DNA of 64,000 nucleotides, from NCBI GenBank assembly GCA_025935925.1, contig JAICUI010000005.1, positions 1-64,000 on the forward strand, given 5' to 3'. The notes below the pieces were generated by a model, which made no database searches, was not told the origin of the DNA, and worked only from the letters and a program-made list of their open reading frames with translations. The translations under genes were made by a program, and so were the position numbers. Origin of the DNA: Chloroflexota bacterium. Its GTDB lineage: Bacteria; Chloroflexota; Limnocylindria; Limnocylindrales; CSP1-4. This document shows, piece after piece, positions 42,727 through 50,114 of this stretch (position 1 is the stretch's first letter; each line of letters starts with the position of its first letter).

Positions 42727-44886
42727 TCAGCCGGTGGCGTCGGCGACGATCGGTGCGGACGGCTCCGACGGTCCGGCGGCGACGGGCGCAGGTGCGGCTC
42801 CGGGCCGCCCGAGCTCGATCCCGATGTCGGACAGCCACCGCCGGATGTTGCGGTAGATGGCCGGGGCGCCGTAGGGCACGGGCTCGTCGAGCTCCCAGTC
42901 CTTGGGGTGGAGGATGAAGGGCCTGGTCTGCATCCCGCCGTACCCGCCGTGGGACCCGATGAGCTCCTCGTACGCCGCGACCTCGCCCAGCTCGGGCTCG
43001 TACTGGCTGAGCAGCAGCAGATCCGGTGCGTGTTCCATCGCATCCTGGCGGCGCAGGTTGTCGACAATGTGCGGGCCGAACTCCGCCGTCGGATCCTCGC
43101 CCTCGGCGTGGCCGTCCTCGAGGTACATGACGCCGCGCGGCCCGATCGCCACCCCGCCGCGGGCGGAGCGCACCTGGACGAACGAGTTCCCGGGATGCTC
43201 GGCCAGCGCCTGCACGAGGCCGGGATGCAGCTCCTCGAGCTCCTCGAGCGAGAGCCGGTGGTCGTGGCCGGTGAAGTAGATGAGGCCGAGGTTCCCGGAT
43301 CCGACGACGGCGATCGAGCCCGGGTCGGCGGGCGTTTCGGGTTCCTTGGGTTCATCGAGGTCGACCACGCCGTCAGATGACGTCCGGTTCGCGAACGCGA
43401 GCCGTGCCGTCGCCGCTCCGACGCCTCGCGAGCGGGTCACCTCGGACAGGAACGCGTTGAGGAACGCGGATCCCTCGGCGGCCGCCTGGGTCTTCTGGAC
43501 GAGCTTTGCCCGGCCGCCCATCAGGCGCAGGACGAGGTCGCCGAGGCTCTCGCCGTAGCGCTGCTTGAACGTCGCGCCGAGGCTTTGGCCATGGTCGGAC
43601 AGCACGATGAACCGGTACGGCCGCGGGGCGGACTCGGCGGCCTTGGCGAGCGTCCCGATCGCGGCGTCGACGCCGTCCAGCGCCTCGAACGACTCGACCC
43701 GCTCCGGCCCGCAGTGATGCGCGAGCTCGTCGTAGTCGGTGAAGTCGGCGTAGATCACGTTGGCGCCGCGGTACATCTCCTCGATGATCAGCGAGACGTT
43801 GATGTCCCGGAGCAGGACGTTGCTGGCCGCGCGCATCCCCGCGTACTTCATGCCGCGATGCATCTGGGGCGTGATCCCGCGGCGCCGCGTGCGGCGTGCC
43901 TGGTACTGCTCCTTGACCACCTCGGCGAGGAACAGCGTGAAGGAGCGGAGGTAGCCGGTCGGGCTCAGGAAGAAGCCGTAGAACGCCTTGCTGTCGCCGA
44001 TGCCCTTGGACCCGTCGACGAGGCCGGCGGTCGTGAGGTAGGACCGCCCCGCATCCCCGGTCACGAGGTTGCAGATGCTGACGCCGTCGTTCGACAGCAA
44101 CCCCTCGCCGTTGCTGTGGCGCTTCACGAGCTCGGCGGCATCGGCTGGCTTGCTCGAGACGCGGAACAGCTGCGTGTCGCGCTCGAACCAGCGGAATGCC
44201 GGGAGCCCGTCGTTGTTGCCGTGCAGGATGCCGAGCTGGCTCGCCGAGGTCATCGACGGCAGCATCGCCTCCCACTGGGACAGCTTGTGCGAGCCGCCGC
44301 GGACCCAGCTCGACATCGTCGTGACGGAGCCGGCGCGGATGCGGGCCGCGACGATGGGGTGGGCGAGGCCGTCGATCTGGACGATGACGAGGCCCGGCTT
44401 GTCGCTCGGGGCGGCGCCCGTCTTGGATCGGAGCGACTGGACGAGCGTCGCGTAGTAGGAGCCGCCGGAGTCGACCCCGAGGATCGCCGTCAATGCCGTG
44501 TTGATGCCGGCATACAGGAACGAGCCGACCACCGCGGTCACGATCCGATCGACGTGGACGCCCGGCGAGAGGGTGGCGACGACGTAGAAGGCGACGACCT
44601 GGAGGACGAGGACCAGGACGGCCGTGAGGATCAGCGATCGTGGGGCGACGAACAGGAGGAGGACCGGCCGGATCAGGGCGTTGAACAGCGCGACGAGCAC
44701 GATCGCGAGGACGCCGGAGAGGAAGGTGTCGACGTGGATCCCGGGGAGGATCCAGGCCGTGAGCGCGAACGACACGATCGCGACCACGGTGACGATGACC
44801 AGGCGCTTCAGGAGGCCGGCCGGTCCGCCGCGCCAGTCCCACAGGATCCGCAGCTGCGTGCCGTAGAGGTCGATGAGGCGGCCCAT
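42727..44886 (-). CDS. fusion of holin-IV-like membrane domain and alkaline-phosphatase-fold domain
   Basis: This 719-residue membrane protein has an N-terminal four-TM block (about 27-155) resembling phage holin family IV (ALFNALIRPVLLLF, SFLYAGINTALTA). An alkaline-phosphatase/phosphodiesterase domain follows (about 170-640) with VIVQIDGLAHP, MLPSMTSASQ providing a candidate Thr/Ser nucleophile, DFTDYDELAHH, VLSDHGQS and YFTGHDHRL as metal-ligand strands. It probably cleaves a phospho-ester at the outer or periplasmic face. GGGAG lies five bases before the ATG. A stand-alone holin-IV paralogue is at 21.5 kb. Confidence 0.85.
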   Translation of the reverse strand: MGRLIDLYGTQLRILWDWRGGPAGLLKRLVIVTVVAIVSFALTAWILPGIHVDTFLSGVLAIVLVALFNALIRPVLLLFVAPRSLILTAVLVLVLQVVAFYVVATLSPGVHVDRIVTAVVGSFLYAGINTALTAILGVDSGGSYYATLVQSLRSKTGAAPSDKPGLVIVQIDGLAHPIVAARIRAGSVTTMSSWVRGGSHKLSQWEAMLPSMTSASQLGILHGNNDGLPAFRWFERDTQLFRVSSKPADAAELVKRHSNGEGLLSNDGVSICNLVTGDAGRSYLTTAGLVDGSKGIGDSKAFYGFFLSPTGYLRSFTLFLAEVVKEQYQARRTRRRGITPQMHRGMKYAGMRAASNVLLRDINVSLIIEEMYRGANVIYADFTDYDELAHHCGPERVESFEALDGVDAAIGTLAKAAESAPRPYRFIVLSDHGQSLGATFKQRYGESLGDLVLRLMGGRAKLVQKTQAAAEGSAFLNAFLSEVTRSRGVGAATARLAFANRTSSDGVVDLDEPKEPETPADPGSIAVVGSGNLGLIYFTGHDHRLSLEELEELHPGLVQALAEHPGNSFVQVRSARGGVAIGPRGVMYLEDGHAEGEDPTAEFGPHIVDNLRRQDAMEHAPDLLLLSQYEPELGEVAAYEELIGSHGGYGGMQTRPFILHPKDWELDEPVPYGAPAIYRNIRRWLSDIGIELGRPGAAPAPVAAGPSEPSAPIVADATG

Positions 44887-45013: not shown

Positions 45014-47044
45014 CTAGGAGGTGGCCTTCCGCCGCTCGCGGCGGCGCCGCTCGCCCTGTTCCGGCACGAGCTCGGCGGCGGCCCCGGCCGGCAGCGAGCG
45101 CCGCCGCTGGTGCTGGCGGCGGTCCGTCTCGACGCCCGACGGTAGCAGCCGGATGGGTGGTTCCGTGACGATGATCTGGCCGAGGATGACGGGCGCCGGC
45201 AGCGGCCCCGAGGCACGCGACCCGTCCGTCTCGGCGATCGCGCCGAGCGACACCCGGAACCCGGCGCGCCGGTGCTGCGGAGGCATCAGCGTCAGCTGTC
45301 CGACCGGCCCGTCGCCCGGGAACCAGCGGACCCACTCCTCGTTGAACGTCTCGAAGTCCGCGGGGTCCTTGAGCGACCAGTTCGCGAGCGCGATCCGGTC
45401 GAGCGACGACCCGGCCTCCTCGAGTCGCGTGCGGAGGTTCTCGAGGCACTGGCGCGCCTGCGCCTTGATCCCGTCGCCGACGAGCCGCCCGGTCTCGGGC
45501 AGCACGGGCCCGACGGACGACACGTAGGCCATGCCGCCGGCGATCACCGTCCGCCCCAGCCCGAACGTGAGCGCGGGCGACTCGCCGCTGTCGATCCCGA
45601 TGGACCGGCCCTTGCCGACCCGCTGCGCCGTCGGCCGCGACGGGTCCTCGGGTGGGATGCCGAACTCACCCTCCGGGAGCGCGATGCCGCTCGCCGCGAA
45701 CTTGGGCATGAACGTCGGGCGCATGCCGGTCGGCCGGAGATCGCCCTGGATCTTGCCGCGCGCGTCCACGCCGGTCTGCTGGAAGACGAAGATGTCCTGG
45801 GTGAGGATCTGGTCGTCCTCGATCCCGTAGACCTCCGTGATGTTGACGATCTTGCGCGAGCCGTCGCCGAGGCGGGCGGTGTGGACGATGAGGTCGACGG
45901 CCGACGCGATCTGCTCGCGGATCGTGCGCAGCGGCATCTCGTACCCGGCCATCAGGATCATCGTCTCGAGCCGCCGCAGCATGTCGGGCGGGCTGTTGGC
46001 GTGGCCCGTCGAGAGGGACCCCTCCTGGCCGACCGTCATGGCCTGGATCATGTCCAGCGCCTCGCCCGCACGGCACTCGCCGACGATGATCCGGTCGGGC
46101 CGCATGTGGAGCGAGTTGCGCAACAGGTCGCGCGTCGTGATCTCGCCGAGGCCCTCGAGGTTGGGCGGGCGCGCCTCGAGCGTGATCACGTGCTCCTGGC
46201 GCAGCTGCAGCTCTGCCGCGTCCTCGATCGTGATGATCCGCTCCTCCTCGGGGATGAACGCGGAGATCACGTTGAGCGTCGTCGTCTTGCCGGAGCCGGT
46301 CCCGCCGGACACGAAGACGTTCAACCGCGCCTCGACGCACACGCGCAGGAAGTCGAACATCTCCGCCGTCGCCGTCCCGAACCCCACGAGGTCCTCGACG
46401 GTGTACGGACGCGCCGAGAACTTGCGGACGGTGATGACGGGCCCGATGAGCGACAGCGGCTCGATGACGCAGTTGACGCGCGAGCCGTCGGGCAGGCGGG
46501 CATCGACGCGCGGGCTCGACTGGTCGATGCGCCGGCCGAGCGGCGTGATGATCCGGTCGATGATCCGCAGCACGTGGTCGTCGTTCAGGAACGACGTCGC
46601 GACGCGCTCGATCTTGCCGCGCCGCTCGATGTAGATGTGGTCCGGGCCGTTGACCATCACCTCGGTGATCGACTCGTCGCGGAGCAGCGGCTCGAGCGGC
46701 CCGAGCCCGGTCACCTCGGCGAGGATCTCGTCGACCAGCCGGACGCGTTCGTCGCGCGTGACGGCCAGGGAGTTGCCGGCGAGGTAGCGGTCGACGATGC
46801 CGTCGACCTGTGGCCGCAGGTCGGGCGTGTCGGTCGCCTCGAACAGCGCGTGGGAGTTCGTGACGACCTCGGTCTGGAGGCCGCGCCGGACCTCGCGCAG
46901 GAACTCCTCGCGCGCCACCACGGTCTCGCCCGCCGGCACCGTCGGCACGAGGGCGTTGATGGGCGCGGGCGGCTGGGGCCCCTGGACCTCGTCTTCGAGC
47001 TGCTGCTCGCGCTGCGCGCGCTGGATGCGCTGGGTGAGGGACAT
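45014..47044 (-). CDS. CpaF/TadA-type secretion ATPase fused to a RidA-like domain
   Basis: This 676-residue protein has residues 1-480 as a complete CpaF ATPase: N-terminal helices, DESITEVMVNGPDHIYIE, Walker A GGTGSGKTTT near 246-255, Asp box ITIEDAAELQL, Walker B IIVGECRAGEALDM near 318 and the STGHANSP His box. Residues ~495-605 form a YjgF/RidA-like domain (FGLGRTVIAGGMAYVSSVG; QARQCLENLRTRLEEAGSSLDRI), followed by an Arg-rich tail. CpaF powers Flp/Tad pili, yet no other tad gene is in the window. The fusion is in one open frame. Confidence 0.88.
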   Translation of the reverse strand: MSLTQRIQRAQREQQLEDEVQGPQPPAPINALVPTVPAGETVVAREEFLREVRRGLQTEVVTNSHALFEATDTPDLRPQVDGIVDRYLAGNSLAVTRDERVRLVDEILAEVTGLGPLEPLLRDESITEVMVNGPDHIYIERRGKIERVATSFLNDDHVLRIIDRIITPLGRRIDQSSPRVDARLPDGSRVNCVIEPLSLIGPVITVRKFSARPYTVEDLVGFGTATAEMFDFLRVCVEARLNVFVSGGTGSGKTTTLNVISAFIPEEERIITIEDAAELQLRQEHVITLEARPPNLEGLGEITTRDLLRNSLHMRPDRIIVGECRAGEALDMIQAMTVGQEGSLSTGHANSPPDMLRRLETMILMAGYEMPLRTIREQIASAVDLIVHTARLGDGSRKIVNITEVYGIEDDQILTQDIFVFQQTGVDARGKIQGDLRPTGMRPTFMPKFAASGIALPEGEFGIPPEDPSRPTAQRVGKGRSIGIDSGESPALTFGLGRTVIAGGMAYVSSVGPVLPETGRLVGDGIKAQARQCLENLRTRLEEAGSSLDRIALANWSLKDPADFETFNEEWVRWFPGDGPVGQLTLMPPQHRRAGFRVSLGAIAETDGSRASGPLPAPVILGQIIVTEPPIRLLPSGVETDRRQHQRRRSLPAGAAAELVPEQGERRRRERRKATS

Positions 47045-47961: not shown

Positions 47962-48639
47962 TCAGGCGCCCGCGGCGTCGAGGAGCCCCGCCCGGTACGC
48001 GATGATCGCGGCCTGCGTGCGGTCGGCGGCGCGGAGCTTCGCGATGATGCTCTGGACGTGCTTCTTCACCGTGTCCTCGGCGATCGACAGCTCGCCGCCG
48101 ATCTCCTTGTTCGTGAGGCCCTCGGCCAGGCGCCCGAGCACGTCGACCTCGCGGGGCGTCAGCCCGAACGCCTCGGGTCCGCGGCGCGTCTCGGCGTGGC
48201 CCCGCGCCGGCGAGCCCCCCGGCGTGAGCGCGTCGCGCAGCAGCGTGGGGTCGATCGCGAGCTGGCCGTCCGCGACCGCGGTCAGCGTGGCGAGCAGGTC
48301 GACCGTCGACGCATCCTTGAGCACGTAGCCCGCGGCGCCGCGGCGGATCGCCTCGAGGACGTACGTCCGGTCGTCGTACAGCGTCACGATGACCACCGGC
48401 ACGGGGTCGTCGAGCCGCTTGAGCGCCTCGAGGCACGCGAGACCGTCCATCCCCGGCATCCGGATGTCGAGCAGGACGATGTCGGGCGCCAGGCGGGTGA
48501 CGGCGTCGAGCCCGGCCTCGCACCGGTCCGCCTCGCCGACGACCTGCAGCCAGTCGGCCGTCGACAGCATCGCCTCCAGGCCGCGTCGCGACATCTCGTG
48601 GTCGTCGATCAGGAGGACGCGTGTCGCGCGATCGGTCAT
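47962..48639 (-). CDS. NarL/FixJ-type response regulator
   Basis: This 225-residue regulator has a receiver domain (7-125) with acidic pair Asp12/Asp13, phosphoacceptor Asp58 in VLLDIRMPG, Thr in VIVTLYDD and Lys in YVLKDAS. The LuxR-type HTH (about 155-215) reads LTPREVDVLGRLAEGLTNKEIGGEL. Its ATG overlaps the stop of the methyltransferase-histidine kinase gene by four bases, so it is the cognate partner. Target genes are unknown. Confidence 0.93.
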   Translation of the reverse strand: MTDRATRVLLIDDHEMSRRGLEAMLSTADWLQVVGEADRCEAGLDAVTRLAPDIVLLDIRMPGMDGLACLEALKRLDDPVPVVIVTLYDDRTYVLEAIRRGAAGYVLKDASTVDLLATLTAVADGQLAIDPTLLRDALTPGGSPARGHAETRRGPEAFGLTPREVDVLGRLAEGLTNKEIGGELSIAEDTVKKHVQSIIAKLRAADRTQAAIIAYRAGLLDAAGA

Positions 48640-50114
48640 CGTCGGTCTCCCCCGTCATCGCCGGCGCCGTCGGCGGGCACCGAGGGCAGCTCCAGCACGA
48701 GGCCGGCACCCGACCCGACCGAGGCGATGCGCGCCGTGCCGCCGAGCCGTGCCGCCAGGCGCTGGATCGACGCCAGCGCGCGCCTGCCGTCCTCGTTCCG
48801 GGGGTCCGCGAGCGCCGACCCTCCCTCGCCGGTCAGCGTGATGATGCGCCGATCCCCGGGGGCGCGGAGGTCGATCGCGACGGCGGCACCGGGTGCCGAT
48901 CGGTCGAGCGCGGTCGCGGCCTCGGTCACGAGATCGAACGAGGCGGCCTCGAGCGTCACGGCGTCCCGCGACAAATCGCCGTCCACCTCGACCGGCCTGC
49001 CGGTGCGCGTCCGACGCTCCGCCCAGCCTCGGACGGCGGCCGCGAGGCCGAGCTCCTCTAGTCCCGGCGCGACGAGGCCGTCGCCGATCGCCCGCAGCTC
49101 GCGCATCCCGGCCAGCAGCTGCTCGCCTGCCGCCTCCAGGTCGGCTCGCGTCCCCGGCTCATCGTCACGCGCCCTCGCCGCCTCGAGGAGCCGGTAGGCG
49201 GCGACGAGCGACTGCCCCGCCACGTCGTGCAGCTCGTCGGCGGCGCGCCGGCGGACGGCGCCGGCCGCGTCGGCCCGGCCGGCCGCGGCGTCGAAGCCGG
49301 GCTTCGTCGCTCGCAGCGAGAAGAACAGCGGCAGCTCACCGCGCGCGTCCGGCGGCAGCCGGTAGCGGCCGTCTCCCGCGTCGGCGAGGAACGCCACGGG
49401 CCACTCGACGAACGGGTGCTCGTGGACGAAGTCCAGGAGCAGCCCGGCGTCGATCAGCGCGCTGATGATCTCGCCCAGCGAGTGGCTCCAGCCGTGCTCG
49501 ACGAGGCCCTCCGTCGGCGCGGTCGGGTCCGCGTACGACCCGTGGACGTCGAAGGTGATGGGGTCGCGGTGCGACCAGTAGGGGTACGCGAGCCGGAGCT
49601 CGCCCGGGGCGACGTCCTCGTCGGCGAACACCTGGGCGACCGGGTGGATCTCCGTGACGTAGAACGTGCCGCCGGGCTTGACGAGCGACGCGACCACGCG
49701 GGCCCAGCCCTCGATGTCGGGCAGCCAGCCGAGCACGCCGCGCGACGTGTAGACGATGTCGAACGCCTCCCGGACCGCGTCCGGCGCGTCGTAGACGTTC
49801 GCCTGCACGAAGCGCGCCTCGAGGCCGACGTCGGCAGCGAGGGTCCGCGCTGCGGCGATCGCCTCGGCGCTGAAGTCGATCCCCGTCACCCGCGCGCCCA
49901 GCCGGGCCCACGACAGCGTGTCGAGCCCGAAGTGGCACTGCAGGTGGAGCAGCGTGCGGCCGGCGACCGGCCCGACCTCGGCGCGTTCGTAGTCCGCGAG
50001 CCGGATCGGGCGGGACCCGTCGAGGAACGATGCGACATCGTAGAACGCGGACGGGACGTGGATCCGCGTCCAGGCGTCCCACAGCGCCTGGTTGTCGCGC
50101 AACGGCTGGTCCAT
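48636..50114 (-). CDS. SAM-dependent methyltransferase fused to a NarL-type histidine kinase
   Basis: In this 492-residue protein, residues 1-270 are a class I SAM methyltransferase (LLHLQCHFGLDTLSWARLG near 55-73, VTGIDFS, TSRGVLGWLPD, LPLFFSLRATKP at its end). After about a dozen residues comes a HisKA_3 segment, RRRAADELHDVAGQSL, with the phosphoacceptor His296. A poorly conserved ATPase domain (about 385-480) retains LGGTARIASVGSGAGLVLELP but lacks a clear N-box Asn and DxGxG. There is no stop between the parts. It is translationally coupled to the response regulator. TACACT lies eight bases before the ATG. Confidence 0.87.
   Translation of the reverse strand: MDQPLRDNQALWDAWTRIHVPSAFYDVASFLDGSRPIRLADYERAEVGPVAGRTLLHLQCHFGLDTLSWARLGARVTGIDFSAEAIAAARTLAADVGLEARFVQANVYDAPDAVREAFDIVYTSRGVLGWLPDIEGWARVVASLVKPGGTFYVTEIHPVAQVFADEDVAPGELRLAYPYWSHRDPITFDVHGSYADPTAPTEGLVEHGWSHSLGEIISALIDAGLLLDFVHEHPFVEWPVAFLADAGDGRYRLPPDARGELPLFFSLRATKPGFDAAAGRADAAGAVRRRAADELHDVAGQSLVAAYRLLEAARARDDEPGTRADLEAAGEQLLAGMRELRAIGDGLVAPGLEELGLAAAVRGWAERRTRTGRPVEVDGDLSRDAVTLEAASFDLVTEAATALDRSAPGAAVAIDLRAPGDRRIITLTGEGGSALADPRNEDGRRALASIQRLAARLGGTARIASVGSGAGLVLELPSVPADGAGDDGGDRR

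Follow-up and report, generated by a model that had tools for sequence, protein, structure and literature searches.

A CpaF-type secretion ATPase with a C-terminal RidA-fold domain in a family of uncultured Chloroflexota

The window analysed here is a 64,000-nucleotide stretch of a Chloroflexota genome (contig JAICUI010000005.1), and it carries on its minus strand, at positions 45014 to 47044, a gene encoding a CpaF-type ATPase joined in frame to a RidA-fold domain. The open reading frame begins with an ATG at position 47044, a start shared by its homologues, and ends with a stop at 45014, giving 676 codons plus stop and a product of 676 aa. The original prediction of a CpaF with a C-terminal RidA-like domain was borne out by a Pfam search of the window protein, in which both domains were significant: T2SSE (PF00437) at residues 112–392 (E = 1.4e-58) and Ribonuc_L-PSP (PF01042) at residues 498–578 (E = 6.7e-13; 49.1 bits vs. 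a cut-off of 27.3). The nearest solved structures by sequence are those of CpaF for the first half (E = 1e-113) and of YjgF/RidA proteins for the second half. Scans for terminators, promoters and tandem repeats near the gene returned none.

All parts of the gene lie on the minus strand, and their conservation was assessed in an alignment of the window copy with 31 other distinct full-length fused copies (n = 32). The protein opens with a variable N-terminal region and a three-helix region (residues 1–94; positions 46763–47044), in which the mean pairwise identity of the fused copies is 37%. The CpaF N-terminal domain (NTD) and ATPase core follow (residues 95–460; 45665–46762), with the Walker A K253, the Asp box E278, the Walker B E323 and the His box H348 all retained. 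The linker (residues 461–492; 45569–45664), as defined by the alignment, opens with a conserved FGIPPEDP motif and averages 49% pairwise identity, with 4 of its 32 positions invariant. The RidA-fold domain (residues 493–606; 45227–45568), delimited by Pfam, the alignment, the predicted fold and structure matches, averages 67% identity and has 21 invariant positions out of 114. As anticipated for a canonical CpaF, the unfused proteins of relatives stop near residue 463–484; the shorter CpaF of relatives, ending near residue 470, is a separate, unfused paralogue.

The frame had been read as running on into both a RidA-like domain and a basic tail; the first part of this reading stood, while the tail (residues 607–676; 45017–45226) proved to have no conserved role. 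In most relatives the stop lies 0–5 codons past the RidA domain, and the few that continue have dissimilar extensions. The TAG or TGA stop of three copies from the same genus aligns with the window's GAC at residue 607, and the DNA downstream of this point shows no conservation with those three copies. The roughly 70 residues encoded there are predicted to be disordered in the AlphaFold model of the full protein. Judged from these alignments, the basic tail is a read-through of a lost stop codon, private to the window genome and not a family trait.

The fused gene is found in uncultured Chloroflexota of a single family from soil and groundwater. Public genomes, when scanned, yielded numerous Chloroflexota bins in which the entire architecture is present at 63–76% identity, and the survey of the phylum that the original prediction had called for showed the fusion to be shared by relatives: full-length copies occur in 44 of the 107 genomes of the window genome's GTDB family, and about nine further copies are broken by contig ends (both hand counts). 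Three genomes hold two fused-type genes each, namely G127 (contigs C44 and C37), G071 (C111 and C231) and G073 (C140 and C277); in G071 and in G073 one of the two is broken by a contig end. In a search of the class, 48 of 177 genomes matched at E ≤ 1e-200, every one of them in the same GTDB family. When a profile built from the RidA domain of the fused copies was run over 400 genomes of the phylum, fused copies scored 190–225 bits and standalone proteins no more than 119 bits. Neither the 177 class genomes nor the 400 phylum genomes yielded a fused copy outside the family, only standalone RidA proteins. In a phylogenetic tree the fused copies group together as a single clade (support 100/99) adjoining the ordinary CpaF of the same family; these ordinary paralogues are about 61–67% identical to the fused query. 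The fusion is of single origin, and both of its halves have long been conserved. The missing stop codon of the window copy might point to an error of assembly or gene calling, or to a duplicate in decay, but the architecture is common to more than 30 independent bins with catalytic and RidA-core positions conserved, a degree of conservation that refutes this scarcely credible reading.

Within the ATPase half, adding 34 to the window numbering gives that of Caulobacter crescentus CpaF in an ungapped alignment anchored at Walker A (K253/K287), Walker B (E323/E357) and the His box (H348/H382). The Walker A and B motifs, the Asp box and the His box are intact, and among the nucleotide-site residues examined only R347 is changed. 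This residue is the arginine finger that reaches the gamma-phosphate of the neighbouring subunit and is reported to be conserved in such ATPases (PMC12019362). Its counterpart in the window protein is H313 (46106–46108), and the position is His in all 38 fused copies that cover it and Arg in every unfused CpaF read (47, plus 18 partial ones), a change within the ATPase that the original prediction had overlooked. Conversely, position 213, occupied in the window protein by R179 (46508–46510), is Arg in 37 of 37 fused copies and in none of the approximately 65 unfused CpaFs compared. Two apparent unfused exceptions in these site counts are fused genes broken by contig ends. Frequent changes in fused copies are likewise seen at positions 374 (H to Q) and 371 (N to T). 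The new arginine sits two residues before D215, which in C. crescentus CpaF stabilises R347, and it is a fair guess, though only a guess, that the arginine has been relocated from 347 to 213. The residues named as contacts with the TadB/TadC platform (PMC12019362 and PMC11300603) are also still present: G204, R205, D208, E331 and G334 in 32 of 32 fused copies, and R206 in 31 of 32. These residues hardly vary in any CpaF, however, so that folding or ring assembly may be what preserves them.

The loss of the finger raises the possibility that the fused protein is a regulatory subunit, which would enter mixed hexamers with ordinary CpaF and slow or pause the motor, the RidA domain controlling its entry or their assembly. 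Since R347 acts across subunits (PMC12019362), a subunit lacking it could not complete the active site of its neighbour, and the resulting mixed ring would be slowed or paused. The 61–67% identity to ordinary paralogues and the disappearance of R347 from all fused copies, with the rest of the site retained, are in keeping with this idea. However, the equally universal arginine at 213 looks compensatory and would be needless in a pure poison subunit, and we regard such a role as unlikely.

The RidA half is well defined as a fold. PF01042 is matched independently by all 32 fused copies, the RidA part of the full AlphaFold model has pLDDT values mostly of 90–98 (94 when modelled alone, both as monomers), and its best PDB matches found with Foldseek are RidA/YabJ (TMq 0.82). 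The residues associated with catalysis are gone. The position of RidA Arg105, G582 in the window protein (45299–45301), is Gly in every fused copy counted (40 of 40; 32 of 32 in the full-length alignment), as the original prediction had anticipated in finding the arginine absent, and is Arg in 12 of 12 standalone relatives read. The Glu120 position is Gly in 31 of 32 copies, the residue at the Tyr17 position is not retained, and the segment between the Arg105 and Glu120 positions is lengthened by a two-residue insertion bearing a near-invariant Arg-Arg-Ala-Gly-Phe. Against TIGR00004, which models the detoxifying hydrolases, the fused domain scores 47.9 bits, below the cut-off of 106.25, while a standalone RidA of the same genome scores 152.2 bits.

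An active imine or enamine deaminase merely tethered to the motor is therefore very improbable: the RidA fold and the nearest kin, which are standalone Chloroflexota RidA proteins about 42–50% identical that keep the catalytic arginine, would suit it, but the Arg105, Glu120 and Tyr17 changes and the failed TIGR00004 score run against it, and in RidA itself replacement of the arginine by alanine nearly abolishes activity (PMC4433059). Imine hydrolysis is not thought to occur in Rid proteins without the catalytic arginine (PMC4433059). On the strength of its sequence, the fused RidA domain is not an imine deaminase. Because the catalytic arginine is lost, binding or scaffolding is favoured over catalysis, which agrees with the earlier preference for a binding role, and the RidA fold here is probably a non-catalytic module of a motor.

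The genomic surroundings of the fused gene are those of an orphan. None of the 20 neighbouring genes scanned is a tad or flp gene, in line with the earlier statement that none lay near, and neighbour clustering of 33 fused loci showed no tad gene in their flanks and no common neighbours except among close kin, so that operon context offers no hint of function. Directly downstream in the window (42727–44886, minus strand) is a gene for a 719-aa protein with a four-helix phage-holin-type membrane domain and a type I phosphodiesterase domain, a position not conserved in relatives. Elsewhere in the window, one frame combines a methyltransferase with a HisKA_3 histidine kinase (48636–50114, minus strand) and is followed by a LuxR-type response regulator (47962–48639, minus strand).

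Tad genes do occur elsewhere in these genomes. The TadB/TadC pair of the family adjoins an ordinary, unfused CpaF, and the T2SSF matches, among those listed for the family, lie on contigs other than that of the fused gene when compared by eye. In G004, a genome of the same genus, the Tad locus and the fused gene are on different contigs; by inspection the locus comprises Flp pilins, a CpaB-like protein, a response regulator-ParA (TadZ-like) protein, an ordinary CpaF, TadB and TadC, the last two confirmed by Pfam. Four tandem Flp-like pilin genes of very similar sequence are found there (L124:11941–13199). The search for tad genes elsewhere in the window genome recovered an incomplete Tad locus: contig C88 (11,078 bases) carries TadC at its end, together with a TadB that is cut short. 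A homologue search found no ordinary CpaF in this genome, probably because it was lost to the C88 contig break inside tadB. A search for TadZ in the same genome gave only relatives of the G004 TadZ-like protein at 37–41% identity, on contigs other than C88 (G000:C106:52428–53564 and G000:C66:45847–46602).

This separation from the Tad locus invites the view that the duplicate has left pili altogether and drives or scaffolds another process through its RidA domain, a Tad-independent role that we consider doubtful, if somewhat less so than a regulatory subunit in mixed rings. Its orphan position and unrelated neighbours fit such a role, as does the hand count of co-occurrence, in which the fused gene is present in 44 of 89 genomes with T2SSF and 9 of 18 without, i.e., no association with TadB/TadC in a test blunted by incomplete bins. 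Fused copies also occur in bins without detected T2SSF, some of them with two fused copies; G070 and G073 are good-quality bins with the fused gene and no detected T2SSF, but other good bins of their genus do have T2SSF, so gaps in the bins are possible, though not proven. Set against these points are the platform-contact residues, still retained across the clade, and the presence of TadB/TadC in 16 of the 18 good-quality bins that carry the fused gene (hand count).

The reading we tentatively prefer, at a little short of an even chance, is that the fused protein is a second, specialised subunit of the Tad motor, whose RidA-fold pseudoenzyme serves as a regulatory, structural or putative ligand-binding module. 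The C. crescentus Tad system is served by a single bifunctional CpaF (PMC12019362), which makes a second CpaF a candidate for a specialised motor. In this scheme CpaF would have been duplicated, one copy becoming specialised when a RidA domain joined its C terminus. The fused protein would form a hexameric ring able to dock on the TadB/TadC platform of ordinary CpaF, with altered nucleotide coupling, and may serve as an alternative motor, e.g., one for retraction only or for pausing. Free RidA proteins are trimers; the six RidA domains of the ring would stabilise it and/or bind a small ligand that sets motor activity. Control of export or retraction through metabolite sensing, as first suggested, is a conjecture. 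A bolder version, in which one Tad platform serves two motors, with a RidA-fold ligand sensor gating the second and the relocated arginine (213 for 347) taking part in the catalytic cycle of that second motor, is speculative and in our judgement improbable as a whole.

Were it true, a two-motor Tad pilus would explain directly, at the molecular level, how extension and retraction are kept apart in some Tad systems; an unknown regulatory element is one possibility that has been named for the extension/retraction switch of the single Tad motor (PMC12019362). With its changed finger residue and its domain of a small-molecule type, the fused motor would be nature's own experiment on the need for R347. 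The fused protein is also a first candidate for a metabolite-controlled Tad motor, and a case in which a motor has acquired the RidA fold as a module that is probably not catalytic. The literature searched contained no paper describing a CpaF-RidA protein.

Among known systems the closest is the Tad (type IVc) pilus motor CpaF/TadA of C. crescentus (PDB 8rjf, 8rkd and 9e24), with which the fused protein shares the three-helix region, the NTD and the ATPase core, as well as the Walker A and B motifs, the Asp and His boxes, R217, R223 and the platform-contact residues. It differs in its C-terminal RidA-fold domain, in having His for R347 and Arg at 213, and in its location outside a tad locus. 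With the Rid (YjgF/YER057c/UK114) family the fused domain has in common the fold and the PF01042 match, whereas the losses of Arg105, Glu120 and Tyr17, the insertion with its conserved Arg-Arg, the failed TIGR00004 cut-off and the covalent tie to a motor set it apart. Absence of the catalytic arginine is shared with Rid4–Rid7, subfamilies of unknown function, but these have Trp or a variable residue at the arginine site and keep the glutamate (PMC4433059), while the fused domain has Gly at both, and its nearest kin found are arginine-bearing proteins. The PilT/PilU accessory motors of type IVa pili likewise present a second motor paralogue possibly acting on one platform; the likeness is an analogy only, as they belong to a different ATPase branch from the fused CpaF, and any retraction role here is hypothetical. 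In a Riflebacteria contig (JACQZM010000152.1; L094:5431–10329), one open frame of 1633 aa was also seen to hold three successive T2SSE ATPase domains. In a survey of 292 CpaFs, three architectures were described that differ at the N terminus only (PMC12019362). C-terminal additions of another kind are found in three Bacillota bins (L097:5710–8529, L092:1837–4638 and L100:5599–7839), where a single open frame (747–940 aa) encodes CpaF and, after it, an RcpC/CpaB domain. Since such additions exist, CpaF-RidA is best described as a variant of the known CpaF architecture with an unusual change in its active site.
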